From assembly GCF_017875765.1 (NCBI RefSeq), contig NZ_JAGGNA010000001.1:1619501-1683500 (forward strand): a stretch of 64,000 nt of DNA, in the 5' to 3' direction. The notes under the pieces were generated by a model that saw only the letters and a program-made list of their open reading frames with translations, had not been told where the DNA came from and made no database searches. Origin of the DNA: Flavobacterium sp. CG_23.5 (GTDB lineage: Bacteria; Bacteroidota; Bacteroidia; Flavobacteriales; Flavobacteriaceae). Numbering within the stretch: position 1 is the stretch's first letter; each line of letters starts with the position of its first letter. The position numbers and the translations under genes are program-made. Positions 6,313 to 41,124 of the stretch are shown one piece after another.

Positions 6313-6855
6313 TCTGAACACTGAGACTGGACACTAACCCCTGATTACTGAACGCTGAGACTGAGCAATAACCACTGATTACTGAGACTGAGCACTGAAC
6401 ACTGATCACTGAATACTGATCACTGGACACTGAGACTGAACACTGAGACTGGACACTAACCCCTGATTACTGAACGCTGAGGCTGAACGCTGAGACTGAG
6501 CACTAACCACTGATTACTGAGACTGAGCACTGAAAACTAATTAATGACCACTGAGACTGAGCACTGAATACTAATTACTGCACACTGAATACTGAACACT
6601 GAACACTGATCACTGAATACTGATCACTGGACACTGAGACTGAACACTAACCCCTGATTACTGAACGCTGAGACTGAACGCTGAGACTGAGCACTAACCA
6701 CTGATTACTGAGACTGAGCACTGAAAACTAATTAATGACCACTGAGACTGAGCACTGAACACTGAATACTGAACACTGATCACTGAACACTGAACACTGA
6801 ACACTGATCACTGAATACTGATCACTGGACACTGAGACTGAACACTGAGACTGAT
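6313..6855. repeat. Degenerate heptanucleotide repeat tract (ACTGAAC type)
   Basis: About 540 bp composed almost entirely of ACTGAAC, ACTGATC, ACTGAAT and ACTGGAC heptamers with interspersed ACTGAG hexamers and diverged copies. A larger block beginning near 6340 recurs near 6460 and 6650, showing higher-order duplication. The tract ends about 35 bp before the cpsB-type gene and so forms part of its upstream region. Smaller tracts of the same family occur at 19455-19548, 41027-41124 and 47768-47829. Confidence 0.85.
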
Positions 6856-6879
6856 CATTAATTACTAATAACTTTTTTC

Positions 6880-6891: not shown

Positions 6892-7629
6892 ATGTTTACA
6901 CTTTTCAAATCAAAACCGGTACTAAAGGACCTCATTCCTGAGGGGCACATTGACATTCACTCGCATCTTTTGCCTGGCATTGATGATGGCGCGAGAAATT
7001 TTGAAGATACTTTACGCCTCACACAAGCGCTCCAAGGTTTTGGCGTTTCCCAGTTTATCACCACTCCACATATTATTCAATATGTTTGGGATAATACCCA
7101 CGAGCAAATCCTATCTAAGAAAGCAACTACGGCTTTGGAATTGGAGAAAAATAATATTACTGTTCCTTTTAGCGCCGCCGCAGAATATTTGATGGATGAT
7201 CAGTTTGTGCAGCTTTTTCAGTCACACGAATTACTGACGCTAAAAGATAATTATGTATTAGTTGAAATGTCTTATATCAATGCCCCAATCCAACTGTATT
7301 CTATATTATTTGACTTGCAGGTGGCGGGATATATACCAGTGCTAGCCCATCCAGAACGCTACTTATTTTATCATAACAATTTCAATGAGTACGTAAAACT
7401 AAAAAGAGCGGGGTGTTTATTCCAGCTAAATTTATTGTCGGTAGTGGGTTATTATGGCGCCGAAATTACTAAAATAGCCGAGCAACTTCTGGCAAAAGGA
7501 ATGTACACTTATGTGGGTTCTGATGTGCATCACGACAAACACATTGCTTCATTTGATCAAAAAGTAAAACTAAAAGACTTGGTTCCACTAAAGGAAGCGA
7601 TTGCCAACAATCAATTTTTTAAGGTTTAG
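6892..7629 (+). CDS. CpsB/CapC/YwqE-type PHP protein-tyrosine phosphatase
   Basis: A 245-residue cytoplasmic phosphatase of the PHP superfamily. Metal-binding motifs are visible in order: HIDIHSHLLPGIDDGARNFE near the N-terminus (HxH plus the D-D pair), TTPHI at about 56-60, an acidic AAEYLMDD segment, EMSY at about 125, LAHPERY at about 152-158, and SDVHHDKH near 210. This family dephosphorylates the tyrosine cluster of capsule autokinases (Wzc/CpsD type), and a Wzc-like kinase with such a cluster lies at 44.2-46.6 kb. It is the only plus-strand polysaccharide gene. It is separated from the minus-strand locus by the tandem array, and its 5' side is a heptamer repeat tract. Confidence 0.92.
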   Translation: MFTLFKSKPVLKDLIPEGHIDIHSHLLPGIDDGARNFEDTLRLTQALQGFGVSQFITTPHIIQYVWDNTHEQILSKKATTALELEKNNITVPFSAAAEYLMDDQFVQLFQSHELLTLKDNYVLVEMSYINAPIQLYSILFDLQVAGYIPVLAHPERYLFYHNNFNEYVKLKRAGCLFQLNLLSVVGYYGAEITKIAEQLLAKGMYTYVGSDVHHDKHIASFDQKVKLKDLVPLKEAIANNQFFKV

Positions 7630-7729: not shown

Positions 7730-10700
7730 GTAAAAAATCTTCTCGATACATTTTTGGCTTATTGTAAGTTATTTTCAAAAGATAATTCTTCAAGCCAAAA
7801 ACACTTGAAGAGACGAGCGTGAATTAGTAAAAAAATAGATACCGACAACATTTCTCATGCCTCATTAAGTAAAGTCTGCACCGAGTTTCTATCGAAGCGT
7901 CAGTTCGAGTGATTGAAAAGCTAAAAGTAGAAGTCCTGTAAAATAAAATCATGAAGCTTTTAAATCGTATCGAGAACAGTTTGAGTGATTGAAAAGCTAA
8001 AAGTAGAAGTATAGTAAAGTGAAATCATGAAGCTTTTAAATCGTATCGAGAACAGTTGTCCAAAAAAAACTTCTCGATACATTTTTGGCTTATGATGCTG
8101 TTTTTCCACATTATAATTCTTCAAGCCAAAAACACTCGAAGAGACGGGATTGAATTAATAAAAAAATAGATACCGACAACATTTCTCATGCCTCATTAAG
8201 TAAAGTCTGCACAAAGTTTCTATCGAAGCGTCAGTTCGAGTGATTGAAAAGCTAAAAGTAGAAGTCCTGTAAAATAAAATCATGAAGCTTTTAAATCGTA
8301 TCGAGAACAGTTCGAGTGATTGAAAAGCTAAAAGTAGAAGTCCTGTAAAATAAAATCATGAAGCTTTTAAATCGTATCGAGAACAGTTCGAGTGATTGAA
8401 AAGCTAAAAGTAGAGGTAAAGTAAAGTGAAATCATGAAGCTTTTAAATCGTATCGAGAACAGTTCGAGTGATTGAAAAGACCTTAATTAAATTTTTTCTT
8501 GGCGAGATTCACCAAAGCATCAAAATCTCCATTAATTAAAGCTTCTTTTTTAGCTCTTGACCATTTTTTAATTTGTTTTTCCGTTTCTATGGCCAGATTA
8601 ATATCTGTAAATTCACAATAAAACACCAACTGCAATGGTCTTCTACTACAAGTATAACTGTCAGGATAAAATCCCGAATCATGTTTGAAAATCCTACTTG
8701 TCAAATTACTAGTAACCCCAGTATAATAACTAGTATCAGAACATTTTAAAATGTAAACAAAGGATTGCTTCATAGTATCCGCTTTAAAAACAATTAGGAA
8801 ATCATTATCCATAACGCAAGTTCATCTGTTTAGAAAACTGTCGCGATTTAAAGTGAAGATAATACTTTAAAACCTTTACTGTAAAATTTGATCAATAGCG
8901 ATTGCAAAAAAAAACTTCTCGATACATTTTTGGCTTAGTGTAAGTTATTTTAAAAAGATAATTCTTCAAGCCAAAAACACTCGAAGAGACGACTGTGGTT
9001 TCAAAAAATAAGATAGGTGTCGACAACATTTCTCATGCCTCAATAAGTAAAGTCTGCACCGAGTTTCTATCGAAGCGTCAGTTCGAGTGATTGAAAAGCT
9101 AAAAGTAGAAGTCTTGTAAAATGAAATTATGAAGCTTTTAAATCGTATCGAGAACAGTTGGTCAAAAAAAACTTCTCGATACATTTTTGGCTAATTGTAA
9201 GTTATTTTCAAAGAATAATTGTTCAAGCCAAAAACACTCGAAGAGACGACTGTGGTTTCAAAAAATAAGATAGCTGTCGACAACATTACTCAAGCCTCAT
9301 TAAGTAAAGTCTGCACCGAGTTTTTATAGAAGCGTCAGTTCGAGTGGTTGAAAAGCTAAAAGTAGAAGTCAAGTGAAGTGAAATCATGAAGCTTTTAAAT
9401 CGTATCGAGAACAGTTGGTCAAAAAAATCTTCTCGATACATTTTTGGCTTATAATGCTGTTTTTCCACATGATAATTTTTCAAGCCAAAAACACTCGATG
9501 AGACGACTGTGGTTTCAAAAAATAAAATAGGTGCCGACAACATTTCTCAAGCCTCATTAATTGAAGTCTGCACCGATTTTCTATCGAAGCGTCAGTTCGA
9601 GTGATTGAAAAGCTAAAAGTAGAAGTCAAGTGAAGTGAAATCATGAAGCTTTTAAATCGTATCGAGAACAGTTGGTCAAAAAACTTCTCGATACATTTTT
9701 GGCTTAGTGTAAGTTATTTTCAAAAGATAATTCTTCAAGCCAAAAACACTCGAACAGACGAGCGTGAATTAGGAAAAAAATAGATACCGACAACATTTCT
9801 CAAGCCTCATTAAGTAAAGTCTGCAACGAGTTTTTTATAGAAGCGTCAGTTCGAGTGATTGAAAAGCTAAAAGTAGAAGTCAAGTGAAGTGAAATCATGA
9901 AGCTTTTAAATCGTATCGAGAACAGTTGGTCAAAAAACTTCTCGATACATTTTTGGCTTAGTGTAAGTTATTTTCAAAAGATAATTCTTCAAGCCAAAAA
10001 CACTCGAACAGACGAGCGTGAATTAGGAAAAAAATAGATACCGACAACATTTCTCAAGCCTCATTAAGTAAAGTCTGCAACGAGTTTTTTATAGAAGCGT
10101 CAGTTCGAGTGATTGAAAAGCTAAAATTAGACGTCACGTAAAATGAAATCATGAAGCTTTTAAATCGTATCGAGAACAGTTGGTCAAAAAAAACTTCTCG
10201 ATACTTTTTTGGCTAATTGTAAGTTATTTTCAAAGAATAATTGTTCAATCCAAAAACACTCGAAGAGACGACTGTGGTTTCAAAAAATAAAATAGATACC
10301 GACAACATTTCTCATGCCTCATTAAGTAAAGTCTTCACCGAGTTTTTATCGAAGCGTCAGTTCGAGTAATTGAAAAGCTAAAAGTAGAAGTCAAGTGAAG
10401 TGAAATCATGAAGCTTTTAAATCGTATCGAGAACAGTTGGTCAAAAAAACTTCTCGATACATTTTTGGCTTATTGTAAGTTATTTTCAAAAGATAATTCT
10501 TCAAGCCAAAAACACTCGAAGAGACGAGCGTGAATTAGAAAAAATATAAACATCGACGACATTACTCAAGTCTCATTTAGTCTAGCCTACCCAAAGTTTT
10601 TTATAGAAGCGTCGGTTCGAGTGATTGAAAAGCTAAAATTAGACGTCACGTAAAATGAAATCATGAAGCTTTTAAATCGTATCCAGAACAGTTGGTCAAA

Positions 10701-13605
10701 AAAACTTCTCGATACATTTTTGGCTTATTGTAAGTTATTTTCAAAAGATAATTCTTCAAGCCAAAAACACTCGAAGAGACGAGCGTGAATTAGAAAAAAT
10801 ATAAACATCGACGACATTACTCAAGTCTCATTTAGTCTAGCCTACCCAAAGTTTTTTATAGAAGCGTCGGTTCGAGTGATTAAAAAGCTAAAATTAGACT
10901 TCACGTAAAATGAAATTATGAAGCTTTTAAATCGTATCGAGAACAGTTGGTCAAAAAACTTATCGATACATTTTTGGCTTAGTGTAAGTTATTTTCAAAA
11001 ATAATTTTTCAAGCCAAAAACACTCGATGAGACGACTGTGGTTTCAAAAAATAAAAAAGGTGCCGACAACATTTCTCAAGCCTCATTAATTGAAGTCTGC
11101 ACCGAGTTTCTATCGAAGCGTCAGTTCGAGTGATTGAAAAGCTAAAAGTAGAAGTCAAGTGAAGTGAAATCATGAAGCTTTTGAATCGTATCGAGAACAG
11201 TTGGTCAAAAAACTTCTCGATACATTTTTGGCTTATGATGCTGTTTTTCCACATGATAATTCTTCAAGCCAAAAACACGCGAAGAGACGAACGTGAATTG
11301 GGAAAAACATCAGCATCGACGACAATACTCAAGCCTATTCAAGCGAAAACTACTCTAAGTTTTTTATAGAAGCGTCGGTTCGAGTGATTGAAAAGCTAAA
11401 ATTAGACGTCACGTAAAATGAAATTATGAAGCTTTTAAATCGTATCGAGAACAGTTGGTCAAAAAAAACTTCTCGATACATTTTTGGCTTAGTGTAAGTT
11501 ATTTTCAAAAGATAATTCTTCAAGCCAAAAACACTCGAAGAGACGGGATTGAATTAATAAAAAAATAGATACCGACAACATTTCTCAAGCCTCATTAAGT
11601 AAAGTCTGCAACGAGTTTTTTATAGAAGCGTCAGTTCGAGTGATTGAAAAGCTAAAAGTAGAAGTCAAGTGAAGTGAAATCATGAAGCTTTTAAATCGTA
11701 TCGAGAACAGTTGGTCAAAAAACTTCTCGATACATTTTTGGCTTAGTGTAAGTTATTTTCAAAAGATAATTCTTCAAGCCAAAAACACTCGAACAGACGA
11801 GCGTGAATTAGGAAAAAAATAGATACCGACAACATTTCTCAAGCCTCATTAAGTAAAGTCTGCAACGAGTTTTTTATAGAAGCGTCAGTTCGAGTGATTG
11901 AAAAGCTAAAATTAGACGTCACGTAAAATGAAATTATGAAGCTTTTAAATCGTATCGAGAACAGTTGGTCAAAAAACTTCTCGATACATTTTTGGCTTAT
12001 GATGCTGTTTTTCCACATGATAATTCTTCAAGCCAAAAACACGCGAAGAGACGAACGTGAATTGGGAAAAACATCAGCATCGACGACAATACTCAAGCCT
12101 ATTCAAGCGAAAACTACTCTAAGTTTTTTATAGAAGCGTCGGTTCGAGTGATTGAAAAGCTAAAATTAGACGTCACGTAAAATGAAATTATGAAGCTTTT
12201 AAATCGTATCGAGAACAGTTGGTCAAAAAAAACTTCTCGATACATTTTTGGCTTAGTGTAAGTTATTTTCAAAAGATAATTCTTCAAGCCAAAAACACTC
12301 GAACAGACGAGCGTGAATTAGGAAAAAAATAGATACCGACAACATTTCTCAAGCCTCATTAAGTAAAGTCTGCAACGAGTTTTTTATAGAAGCGTCAGTT
12401 CGAGTGATTGAAAAGCTAAAAGTAGAAGTCAAGTGAAGTGAAATCATGAAGCTTTTAAATCGTATCGAGAACAGTTGGTCAAAAAACTTCTCGATACATT
12501 TTTGGCTTAGTGTAAGTTATTTTCAAAAGATATTTCTTCAAGCCAAAAACACTCGAAGAGACGAGCGTGAATTAGGAAAAAAATAGATACCGACAACATT
12601 TCTCCTGCCTCATTAAGTAAAGTCTGCAACGAGTTTTTTATAGAAGCGTCAGTTCGAGTGATTGAAAAGCTAAAATTAGACGTCACGTAAAATGAAATTA
12701 TGAAGCTTTTAAATCGTATCGAGAACAGTTGGTCAAAAAAAACTTCTCGATACATTTTTGGCTAATTGTAAGTTATTTTCAAAGAATAATTGTTCAAGCC
12801 AAAAACACTCGAAGAGACGACTGTGGTTTCAAAAAATAAGATAGGTGTCGACAACATTTCTCAAGCCTCATTAAGTAAAGTCTGCTCAAAGTTTTTTGTC
12901 GAAGCGTCAGTTCGAGTGATTGAAAAGCTAAAAGTAGAAGTCAAGTAGAATGAAATCATGAAGCTTTTAAATCGTATCGAGAACAGGTGGTCAAAAAAAC
13001 TTCTCGATACATTTTTGGCTTATGATGCTGTTTTTCCATATTATAATTCTTCAAGCCAAAAACACTCGAAGAGACGAGCGTGAATTAGGAAAAACATCAG
13101 CATCGACGACATTACTCATGCCTCATTAGGTAAAGTCTGCACCTAGTTTTTATCGAAGCGTCAGTTCGAGTGATTGAAAAGCTAAAATTAGACGTCACGT
13201 AAAATGAAATTATGAAGCTTTTAAATCGTATCGAGAACAGTTGGTCAAAAAAAACTTCTCGAAACATTTTTGGCTTATTGTAAGTTATTTTCAAAAGATA
13301 TTTCTTCAAGCCAAAAACACTCGAAGAGACGAGCGTGAATTAGGAAAAAAATAGATACCGACAACATTTCTCCTGCCTCATTAAGTAAAGCCTGCTCAAA
13401 GTTTTTTATAGAAGCGTCGGTTCGAGTGATTGAAAAGCTAAAAGTAGAGGTAAAGTAAAGTGAAATCATGAAGCTTTTAAATTGTATCGAGAACAGTTCG
13501 AGTGATTGAAAAGCTAAAAGTAGAAGTCAAGTGAAGTGAAATCATGAAGCTTTTAAATCGTATCGAGAACAGTTCGAGTGATCGTGAAGCTAAACTTAAA
13601 CTTGC
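7730..13605. repeat. Mosaic tandem array, ~20 units of ~255 bp plus 77-bp sub-units
   Basis: I counted 20 occurrences of the landmark TTCTCGATACATTTTTGGC (some with 1-2 changes), the first near 7739 and the last near 13256. From 8914 on the spacing is mostly 252-261 bp. At the left (7860-8480) and right (13440-13600) ends, shorter 77-bp sub-units (CGAGTGATTGAAAAGC to TATCGAGAACAG) are stacked. Each unit contains the inverted pair TATCGAGAA/TTCTCGATA and a long imperfect hairpin (CATTTTTGGCTT with AAGCCAAAAACA). Loops and the segment after GAGACGA come in several alternative versions. Units 9684 and 9939 are near identical. A 198-bp stretch at 11172 recurs at 11936, three units away. A GIY-YIG gene interrupts the array at 8483-8773. 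Confidence 0.95.
8483..8773 (-). CDS. GIY-YIG nuclease-family protein embedded in the tandem array
   Basis: A 96-residue single-domain protein starting MKQSFVYILKCSDTSYYTGV. An upstream start at 8812 is possible but adds a non-conserved leader. The GIY-YIG signature is VYILKC followed by YYTGV. The catalytic-type Arg follows in LTSRIFKH, and the metal-ligand Glu in AIETEKQIKKW. A basic KKWSRAKKEALI segment follows. The length is usual for the URI/UPF0213-type group, widespread and multicopy in flavobacteria. The array sequence abuts its stop codon (ATTGAAAAG ends at 8479, stop at 8483) and resumes about 135 bp before its start. The gene therefore replaces an internal part of a repeat unit. 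Activity is unproven; the residues needed for cleavage appear present. Confidence 0.85.
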   Translation of the reverse strand: MKQSFVYILKCSDTSYYTGVTSNLTSRIFKHDSGFYPDSYTCSRRPLQLVFYCEFTDINLAIETEKQIKKWSRAKKEALINGDFDALVNLAKKKFN

Positions 13606-13744: not shown

Positions 13745-15712
13745 TTATTTATCCAATAATTGAAAAGTAGAATTCATACTTACAAATTCAGGGACGATTT
13801 TCTTCATTTGAAGTACGATATCGTCATTACCAAAAAAGTTAGCCTTATGAATCAGCTCTTCAATATCGAAATTTAAATTCTCAAATTCATCGTGAATTTC
13901 CTGTGCAATCATAATTTTCTCATGATAGGTAGGCAAGGTTTTGGAAGTATCATTCAGCAATTCTTCATATAATTTTTCCCCTGGACGCAAACCAACTATT
14001 TCAATCTTGATTTCCTTATCAGGTACAAATCCTGCCAACTTGATCATCTTATTGGCGAGATCTATAATTTTAACTGGTTTCCCCATGTCAAAAATATAAA
14101 TTTCTCCTCCGTTACCCATAGCTCCTGCTTCCAAAACCAACTGGCAAGCTTCTGGTATAGTCATGAAATACCGAATTATGTCAGGATGCGTAATGGTAAC
14201 CGGTCCGCCTTCGGCAATTTGTTTGGTAAATAAAGGCACCACTGATCCATTAGAACCCAAAACATTTCCGAAACGAGTGGTGATGAATTTTGTAGTCGTT
14301 TTATCTTCTGAATTCTGATTTTTAGACTGTAAAGATTGTACGTATTTTTCGGCTATCCTTTTACTGGCCCCCATCACATTACTGGGATTAACGGCTTTAT
14401 CAGTAGAAACCATTACGAACTTTTTAACTTTATACAAACACGACAAATCAGCTATATTCTTGGTTCCCTCTATATTAGTAAGAATGGCCTGAGAAGGATT
14501 TTCCTCCATCAATGGTACATGTTTATACGCAGCAGCATGAAAAACAACTTGCGGCATATACGTTTTAAAAACCCGGTCCATCGCCTCTTTATTTCTAATA
14601 TCAGCAACTACTGTTCTTATTTTTGCATTTGTGTTTATACTTTCTGTCTCTAATTTCAAGTGGTGCAACGGGGTTTCAGCCTGATCGACCAGAATAATTT
14701 TCTTTGGATTAAAAACCAGCACTTGTCTTACAATTTCACTTCCTATTGATCCTGCCGCACCTGTAATCAAAATAGTTTTATCTTTCAATTGCTTCGAAAT
14801 TGACTTACTGTCGAGAACAATTGGTTTTCTTTCGAGAAGATCTTCAATTTGTATCGTTTTTACTTTTTGAGAAATCTCTTTCTGATTTTCCCAATTGGTA
14901 ATTAAGGGAACATTATATACTTTGTAATTGAATTCCAGACATTGATCTATAATAATCAATTGTTCTTCTTTAGATAAACTTTTGTCAGCAATAATAACGC
15001 CTTCGGCACCTATCGAACGCATTAAAGTGGGTAATTTTTTCTTTTGAACCAAAATGGGTAAATCCAGCATCCTTTTGGAAGCATTTTGATTATTCCTGTC
15101 TACAAACCCAACAATTTTAAATCGGGTTGGTGTTTCAAACTTCAAAGCATTCGCTACTGATATCGCATTGGCATCCGTACCGTAAATGATAGTTCTTATC
15201 AGTTTTTCGGTTCCAATTTCTGAAAAATAAAGCTCGAACGTTTGTTTTATTATAACCCTATATACAAACAATCCGCAAAAAGAAAGCACTATATTTATAA
15301 AAAAAGCTGTGTTTAAAAATGCTTTTTGGCCATATAAAAACTCGTATGAAAAATTAAAAAAAAGAAAGATAACGAGCACCGCCATTTGCGAAAACAACAG
15401 CTTCACGGCATCAATATATGAAGAGTGCCTAATAATTCCTGAATAGGTCCTGAATAACCAAAAAAAGAAAATATTTACTATAAAAAAAGATAATACAAAG
15501 ACAATACTATGCGGTGTGATAATATAATCTAGTCCTGTTCCTCTAAAAATTAGGATCGTAAAAAAAAACGACAATAGCAGAACAGAGAAATCTATCATCA
15601 CAATTATCCACCGGGGTAAATAACCTAAATTACGAATACTGAATTTTAAATTTTTCCTTGAAAAAAAAGGAGAAGTTAAGGGCTCTGAATCAAAATATTT
15701 ATTAGTACTCAA
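13745..15712 (-). CDS. CapD/WbpM-type nucleotide-sugar 4,6-dehydratase (membrane)
   Basis: A 655-residue protein of the FlaA1/CapD/WbpM long-SDR family, which converts UDP-GlcNAc to a 4-keto-6-deoxy sugar at the inner membrane face. Four hydrophobic helices occupy residues about 35-140. A CoA-binding-like segment follows (TIIYGTDANAISVANAL). The SDR domain has the NAD-binding motif ITGAAGSIGSEIVRQ, then FHAAAYKHVPLMEENP, and STDKAVNPSNVMGASKR, in which Met replaces the usual SDR Tyr, as in other CapD-type enzymes. Length is normal for the family. It is the last gene of the operon, followed by a terminator. With the neighbouring aminotransferase, PglC-like transferase and WbpV-like reductase, the product is probably a UDP-QuiNAc- or bacillosamine-type sugar. 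Confidence 0.92.
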   Translation of the reverse strand: MSTNKYFDSEPLTSPFFSRKNLKFSIRNLGYLPRWIIVMIDFSVLLLSFFFTILIFRGTGLDYIITPHSIVFVLSFFIVNIFFFWLFRTYSGIIRHSSYIDAVKLLFSQMAVLVIFLFFNFSYEFLYGQKAFLNTAFFINIVLSFCGLFVYRVIIKQTFELYFSEIGTEKLIRTIIYGTDANAISVANALKFETPTRFKIVGFVDRNNQNASKRMLDLPILVQKKKLPTLMRSIGAEGVIIADKSLSKEEQLIIIDQCLEFNYKVYNVPLITNWENQKEISQKVKTIQIEDLLERKPIVLDSKSISKQLKDKTILITGAAGSIGSEIVRQVLVFNPKKIILVDQAETPLHHLKLETESINTNAKIRTVVADIRNKEAMDRVFKTYMPQVVFHAAAYKHVPLMEENPSQAILTNIEGTKNIADLSCLYKVKKFVMVSTDKAVNPSNVMGASKRIAEKYVQSLQSKNQNSEDKTTTKFITTRFGNVLGSNGSVVPLFTKQIAEGGPVTITHPDIIRYFMTIPEACQLVLEAGAMGNGGEIYIFDMGKPVKIIDLANKMIKLAGFVPDKEIKIEIVGLRPGEKLYEELLNDTSKTLPTYHEKIMIAQEIHDEFENLNFDIEELIHKANFFGNDDIVLQMKKIVPEFVSMNSTFQLLDK

Positions 15713-19454: not shown

Positions 19455-19548
19455 AAACCGAAAACTGAAAAACGGAGCACTGAACACTAATCCCTGCAAA
19501 CTGCTACTGAATACTGATCTCTGAACACTGAACACTGAACACTAAAAC
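19455..19548. repeat. Heptamer repeat tract between the WecA-like gene and rfbA
   Basis: A degenerate run of ACTGAAC/ACTGATC-type heptamers, the same family as 6313-6855. It stops directly at the rfbA stop codon. Confidence 0.75.
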
Positions 19549-40882: not shown

Positions 40883-41026
40883 TTTATCAAGATTTTACGC
40901 TTGTATTTTATTAATTTTTTATCAAATAAAAACCTCTTGTCGGTTTTAAATTAGTCTCGGTTAAGCTTGAACTCAAACCAAATGATCTGCTAACTATTAG
41001 TGTTACTGTAACCCGGACTCTGATCA

Positions 41027-41124
41027 GTCACAACTGACCACTGATCACTGAATACTGTAACCTAATCACTAAAAACTGACCACTGCAAACTGATCACTGA
41101 TTACTGATCACTGAACACTAAAAA
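41027..41124. repeat. Heptamer repeat tract between the Wzz-like and SLBB genes
   Basis: Degenerate ACTGATC/ACTGAAT-type heptamers, the same family as 6313-6855. The tract runs to the stop codon of the SLBB gene. Confidence 0.75.

Follow-up and report, generated by a model that had tools for sequence, protein, structure and literature searches.

A small GIY-YIG nuclease gene set among palindromic repeats in Flavobacterium: a likely compact element and possible partner of the CGTC-type REPs

The described systems closest to the locus considered here are those of the bacterial palindromic repeats (REPs). In RAYT (TnpA-REP) systems the REPs carry a GTAG tag and the enzyme is an HUH/Y1 protein. 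REPs with a CGTC tag have been described from five phyla, apparently without a transposase dedicated to them (Di Nocera et al. 2013, PMC3733652). They include dRS3 of Neisseria and RPE-4 and RPE-6 of Rickettsia, and the carriers named in that paper include A. lipoferum, N. aromaticivorans, S. meliloti and Neisseria (PMC3733652). Which enzyme, then, might spread the CGTC repeats? The locus described below, together with its counterparts in other genomes, points to a small GIY-YIG nuclease. The GIY-YIG gene and the REP hairpins around it likely form one compact element, the product of which is predicted to cut the hairpins and spread them, a reading given a probability of roughly two in three.

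The gene and its array at the cpsB site

The window, a 64,000-nt stretch of the genome of Flavobacterium sp. CG_23.5, contains a tandem array at 7732-13594, between cpsB-like and CapD-like genes, into which the GIY-YIG gene is set. The features referred to below are as follows, in window coordinates.

6892..7629, forward strand: CpsB/CapC-like gene, left border of the site
7732..13594, forward strand: tandem array in which the TTCTCGATAC start recurs 20 times at a spacing of about 254-258 bp, plus 76-bp sub-units
8232..8479 (also 7901-8057 and 13420-13594), forward strand: 76-bp sub-units, head-to-tail repeats of hairpin B
8460..8479, forward strand: 5' half of a hairpin B (CAGTTCGAGTGATTGAAAAG), 3' half absent, adjoining the 3' end of the GIY-YIG gene
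8480..8908, reverse strand: gene-bearing segment of 429 bp, in the place of 65 bp (9099-9163) of the normal unit
8483..8812, reverse strand: small GIY-YIG gene, a 109-aa open reading frame with a PF01541 match
8915..8991, forward strand: complete hairpin A, adjoining the 5' side of the GIY-YIG gene
9076..9159, forward strand: complete hairpin B with its CGTC tag (9076-9079)
13745..15712, reverse strand: CapD-like gene (polysaccharide synthesis) that borders the site on the right and adjoins cpsB in two relatives (G019 and G005)

Each unit of 254-258 bp holds two oppositely oriented hairpins, A and B. Hairpin A is built as CTTCTCGATAC-stem-CACTCGAA-GAGACG and hairpin B as CGTC-AGTTCGAGTG-stem-GTATCGAGAACAGTT, with folding z-scores of -2.58 for the counterpart of hairpin A in the unit at 9684 and of -2.34 for the counterpart of hairpin B at 9843. 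The 254-bp unit has only one matching locus in the whole genome, a single contig of 3.67 Mb. A preliminary description of this DNA had recognised units of 255 and 77 bp; the two classes of unit stand but the exact sizes do not, the measured spacings being 254-258 and 76 bp. Its view that the gene breaks the array at 8480-8908 is borne out, with array sequence ending at 8479 and restarting at about 8909 (AAAAACTTCTCGATAC), and the proposed exchange of about 65 bp for about 430 bp is measured as 65 against 429 bp. The 65 bp that are replaced comprise the loop of one hairpin B together with its 3' half, and the segment that takes their place is single-copy in the genome save for one 23-bp match. 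That the gene replaces the core of a unit is true of the window, but it is a local detail, the gene of most relatives lying between two opposite hairpins. Short-period arrays of a different kind, CACTGAACACTGAT-like, are found at 6314-6861, just upstream of cpsB, and at 19478-19543 and 41020-41119.

Homologues suggest an inner ATG, with the likely start at 8773 and a protein of 96 aa. The protein matches PF01541 with an E-value of 1.1e-14 and 54.9 bits (cut-off 22.6), and this is its sole domain match, the HUH/Y1 transposase domain (PF01797) being absent. Across 55 sequences Y17, R27 and E65 are invariant and Y7 and H31 nearly so; the conserved Tyr, Tyr, Arg and Glu are presumably the catalytic positions of the GIY-YIG superfamily. 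Values of dN of 0.09-0.15 reveal strong purifying selection on the gene. The best solved relatives by both sequence and fold are of the UPF0213/YazA type (PDB 1zg2 and 1ywl), and the predicted fold is near that of Slx1, a structure-selective nuclease whose partner in eukaryotes is Slx4, though a common fold does not in itself imply a common function. On its own, the window protein matches 1,510 protein clusters.

The site can be compared with its counterparts in related genomes. No hairpin word is found in 12 of the 13 relatives' cpsB loci examined (13 of 21). In G019 about 220 bp separate cpsB from the gene at the right border, which we take to be CapD-like from its sequence, whereas the window genome has 6.1 kb there. 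A further relative, G007, has at its cpsB site a GIY-YIG gene that is 79% identical and in the same orientation, with hairpins from the cpsB stop codon on; CACTGAACACTGAT-like sequence also adjoins the hairpins of this genome. The simplest reading is of one insertion common to the window genome and G007, with the array having grown later.

Hairpins beside close and distant homologues

For the close homologues, GTDB species genomes were scanned with the protein alone, and the best 80 of 122 relatives gave 79 distinct loci, on which all the counts in this paragraph rest. The homologues are 63-83% identical and come from Flavobacterium, Lutibacter, Winogradskyella, Aquimarina, Arenibacter, Kordia and others. 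The preliminary description had suggested asking whether the same repeat motifs flank such genes, and indeed 78 of the 79 loci have an exact TCTCGATAC or CACTCGAA word no more than 600 bp from the gene; the exception (L104) has another CGTC-like palindrome, as judged by eye. Hairpin words occur at 8.5 per kb near the gene against 0.52 per kb beyond it. Within 300 bp, a word is present on at least one side of the gene in 78/79 loci against 31/234 other open reading frames of the same loci, and on both sides in 71/79 against 1/234. When the two flanks of a gene are compared with each other in a motif-free way (E≤1e-3), a match is found at 71 of 77 loci and at 13 of 240 control reading frames, once two of the 79 loci and 56 of 296 controls with short flanks are left out. 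Most often the order is TTCGAGTG-stem-GTATCGAGAA, then the gene, then TTCTCGATAC-stem-CACTCGAA; the CGTC-like tags face outward and, in many loci, the stop codon abuts TTCTCGATAC. A CGTC, TGTC or CCTC tag stands at one end both of window hairpin B and of most of the flavobacterial flanks printed. The pairing of gene and hairpin is not due to chance, because relatives repeat it, and since the 79 loci fall into 52 groups by their flanking genes it is not the property of one inherited locus either.

The hairpin was also sought in its own right, as the pattern TCTCGATAC-N20-50-ACTCGAA, and is found in 18 of 60 genomes (that of the window among them), with as many as 46 occurrences; its ends are fixed and its stems vary. 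The reversed pattern, as control, gives three single matches in total. All nine genomes having a GIY-YIG protein of at least 63% identity carry the hairpin, against 9 of the 51 others (chance of 9/9, 3e-6). Matches to the window protein at E≤1e-3 are patchy among the relatives (37 of 60 genomes). Repeats that are common in genomes without the gene had been named beforehand as evidence against a link between the two, and this is found in part: eight of the 18 hairpin-bearing genomes have no GIY-YIG gene of at least 50% identity beside that hairpin, six of them (G017, G023, G031, G032, G038 and G048) having no such gene at all and two (G025 and G040) having one flanked by a different palindrome. 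Conversely, G002, G008 and G015 hold a GIY-YIG gene of 53-56% identity without the window-type hairpin, the gene being adjoined by a CTGAGC..GTCGAAG palindrome, and in G029 (57% identity) word lists find neither palindrome and a CTCGAGCGCAGTCGAG palindrome is seen by eye. The flank data of this survey cover 30 GIY-YIG loci among the matches listed.

Some individual genomes may be mentioned here. G048 has 46 window-type hairpins (for instance on contigs C3, C4, C7 and C22) and no match to the window protein at E≤1e-3; several of these hairpins are near contig ends, so that a lost or unassembled gene is possible. Tandem GIY-YIG genes are found in G022 (C1:181297-182927, five copies at 350 bp), in G007 (C24:34493-36483, six copies at about 358 bp) and in G017 (C15:199435-200464, three copies at about 390 bp), and there are two tandem pairs in the window genome itself (L004/L005 and L006/L007).

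Perfect inverted repeats of 27 nt, with GTCATGCTGAGGAACGAAGCATCTC in their core, enclose another small GIY-YIG gene of the window genome, L001. Searches with its protein and then with an S. meliloti protein reached 6 and 34 plasmid records respectively, from which 16 loci were fetched. Hairpins of the CGTC, TGTC or CCTC type flank 15 of these 16 distant loci, 13 of them on both sides: Sinorhizobium (two), Rhizobium, Neorhizobium, Shinella (two), Azospirillum, Novosphingobium, Sphingobium, Aeromonas, N. gonorrhoeae, Spirosoma and Planktothrix. In Photobacterium and Rhizobium K1/93 such hairpins are confined to the downstream flank, and the sixteenth locus, from Radiobacillus, is a yazA-type operon gene with no such REPs in its flanks. 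Proteobacterial loci have a stem of 8-9 bp, a loop of 4-5 and a tail near CCA. At some loci (for example L211, L212, L217, L219 and L220) the tail points toward the gene and the CGTC tag away from it, and at others REP pairs or mixed orientations are nearest to the gene. The motif-free flank test is positive at 12 of 15 plasmid loci and at none of six control reading frames, after leaving out 15 of 21 controls with short flanks and L146, a near duplicate of L145. The N. gonorrhoeae locus (L210) is on NZ_CP119140, a record of 2.17 Mb filed as a plasmid, and its gene lies among CGTCATTCCCGC..GCGGGAATC repeats that look dRS3-like, judging by the description in PMC3733652.

Does the type of REP go with the lineage of the protein? 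A tree was made of 72 proteins, 22 of the 79 homologues and 50 others, of which 10 without a recognised REP type were not counted, leaving 62. The REP type changes 8 times on this tree against at least 25 times (mean 28.9) in 200 shuffles, with classes that were drawn up after the flanks had been seen. From 41 Bacteroidota genomes with PF01541, drawn so as to be well spread, 29 loci were obtained, six of UvrC type and two small ones at contig ends being left unscored. A repeat is common to both sides of the gene in 17 of the 21 scorable small GIY-YIG loci, about 10 of these being REP-like and 7 tRNA-like by eye.

There is also a second class of small GIY-YIG genes, which adjoins tRNA genes, the 3' end of the tRNA and its terminator often being repeated beyond the GIY-YIG gene. 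It comprises L004/L005 and L006/L007 of the window genome together with L273, L276, L279, L281, L282, L284, L286, L287, L289, L292, L296 and L298. ARAGORN finds complete tRNAs in 9 of 12 of the L27x-L29x loci scanned, and tRNA-Asp, tRNA-Gly and tRNA-Leu at the window genome's own loci, the proteins of which group in the tree with the UPF0213-type protein L218.

Derivatives, insertion sites and explanations

The preliminary description had seen in gene and units the relation of an intact element to its internally deleted copies. This is found in Sinorhizobium but not in the window, where the 254-bp and 76-bp units contain no clear remnant of the GIY-YIG gene. Plasmid pK101a of Sinorhizobium sp. 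K101 has two full-length GIY-YIG copies (100 and 98%) and 19 partial matches in the first 84 bp, and in 17 of the 19 nt 84 of the gene is joined to about nt 271, which constitutes one common internal deletion. REP sequence is present to either side at all six of these loci that were printed in full, and in 5 of the 17 deleted copies the similarity extends to the final base of the outer REP tag and no further. By their sequence, dispersed copies with one deletion have the pattern expected of an intact element and its putative non-autonomous offspring.

Insertion sites were also compared. In A. lipoferum 4B a REP-GIY-REP segment lies between sufB and sufC (L209 1855-2471), giving 617 bp against 91 bp in A. 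ramasamyi, and Shinella sp. PSBB067 has one in its suf region (L219 at about 1945-2450), as judged by flanking sequence. Comparison of the A. lipoferum sufB-sufC site with three relatives reveals presence and absence and no target-site duplication or clean junction, the edges being too diverged. The same holds for an S. meliloti REP pair (L301, with REP matches only and no GIY-YIG remnant) against K101, LMB1 and S. medicae, where the edges are likewise too diverged for a junction. A further S. meliloti locus, L300, is covered to at least 80% in 47 of 73 matching records, with no empty site among those followed.

How might such an element work? The protein would recognise the REP hairpin or a cruciform, as its fold near that of a nuclease of branched DNA suggests, and would nick at or near the tagged ends. 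Host repair or replication might then copy the unit next door, giving tandem arrays, or to other places, giving dispersed pairs, with gene-free array units as the predicted non-autonomous copies. The 6-kb array of the window would have been built on one gene-bearing insertion downstream of cpsB, and the half-hairpin absent at the 3' side of the gene would be a later deletion. To our knowledge, GIY-YIG enzymes hydrolyse DNA and do not join strands by themselves, and movement would therefore need host functions. Weighing against gene and hairpins as one element are the confinement of the window unit to a single locus of its genome, the eight of 18 hairpin-bearing genomes without a close GIY-YIG gene beside the hairpin, the lack of a target-site duplication or clean junction, and the controls that also have a flank repeat (13/240) or a hairpin word on one side (31/234).

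The same observations can be read in other ways. GIY-YIG homing endonucleases are a known kind, and the gene could be a selfish, free-standing endonuclease gene settling in REP clusters that were spread by other means, the REPs being its target and not its own ends. The kind being familiar counts for such a passenger, as do the eight hairpin-bearing genomes just mentioned and the one hairpin that the window gene breaks; however, the deleted GIY-YIG piece travels with REPs as one unit in Sinorhizobium, the gene of most flavobacterial homologues lies between hairpins of which none is broken, and REP type follows the protein tree, which together make this explanation unlikely. Somewhat less probable still is a role in the host, in which a domesticated nuclease trims or resolves REP hairpins and alters the length of arrays with no movement to new places: the strong purifying selection, the Slx1-like fold, the long local arrays and the tandem GIY-YIG copies would all agree with this, but patchy presence (37/60 genomes, E≤1e-3), insertion-like states of sites and dispersed deleted copies suit a mobile element better.

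The remaining two explanations treat the position of the gene as accidental. That an ordinary satellite grew by slippage or unequal crossing-over, and that the gene fell into it by chance, would account for a unit at a single locus of the window genome, but is very improbable given that the pairing recurs in 78 of 79 homologues (best 80 of 122) and 52 contexts, with a both-side control of 1/234. As a full account the satellite is refuted by this recurrence, though slippage may still add to the growth of arrays. Least credible of all is movement of the hairpins by a Y1 (RAYT-type) transposase with the GIY-YIG gene adjacent by coincidence: although 15 of 17 hairpin-bearing genomes searched have a Y1_Tnp match and the hairpin pairs resemble REPINs, a hairpin word lies within about 600 bp at only 1 of 30 Y1_Tnp loci fetched (of 42 matches in 17 hairpin-bearing genomes), and Di Nocera et al. 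2013 (PMC3733652) likewise found no tyrosine transposase gene with CGTC REPs at its flanks.

Comparison with known systems

If gene and hairpins do form one element, then one of the two large bacterial palindromic-repeat families probably has in this enzyme the missing partner by which it is spread. A wider claim would be that small GIY-YIG nucleases are the dedicated mobilisers of the CGTC REP superfamily across bacteria, a class of transposable element with a GIY-YIG nuclease as its only protein that gives rise to dispersed REP pairs as well as to long tandem arrays, and a sister class of which uses tRNA genes as the flanking structure; for this the chances appear evenly balanced. A link between a GIY-YIG gene and REPs was not found in the open-licence PMC literature among the matches listed. 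Were small GIY-YIG proteins the partner of the CGTC REPs, an open question concerning one of the two large REP superfamilies could be put to a direct test using a 96-aa protein and hairpin oligonucleotides, and many genes named only "GIY-YIG nuclease family protein" would gain a function.

The REPs beside the distant GIY-YIG genes fit the CGTC type in tag, stem, loop and tail, as described in PMC3733652. The hairpins of the window are tagged as well, but their conserved ends are longer and their stems and loops are larger and vary, and a GIY-YIG gene adjoins the REPs here, whereas that paper reports no dedicated transposase.

Among GIY-YIG proteins, the UPF0213-type L218 differs in lying in an operon before rsmI without REPs, and the operon place typical of UPF0213/YazA, from a tRNA methyltransferase gene to rsmI, is not that of the window gene, which is set in an array bordered by cpsB and the CapD-like gene. 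Homing endonucleases of the I-TevI type differ also, since the loci examined have no intron or intein and the gene stands between REPs.

The likeness to RAYT systems is architectural only. It consists in one small nuclease gene with adjoining REP hairpins in opposite orientations, in gene-free pairs or clusters elsewhere (in the genomes of relatives, not in that of the window) and in a REP type that follows the lineage of the enzyme. The differences are in the enzyme itself, GIY-YIG instead of HUH/Y1, in the tags, CGTC, TGTC or CCTC instead of GTAG, and in the Y1_Tnp genes of the same genomes, which are without window-type hairpins save in that single case among the 30 fetched. If the proposed element is real, an unrelated class of enzyme would have reached the RAYT/REP way of life.
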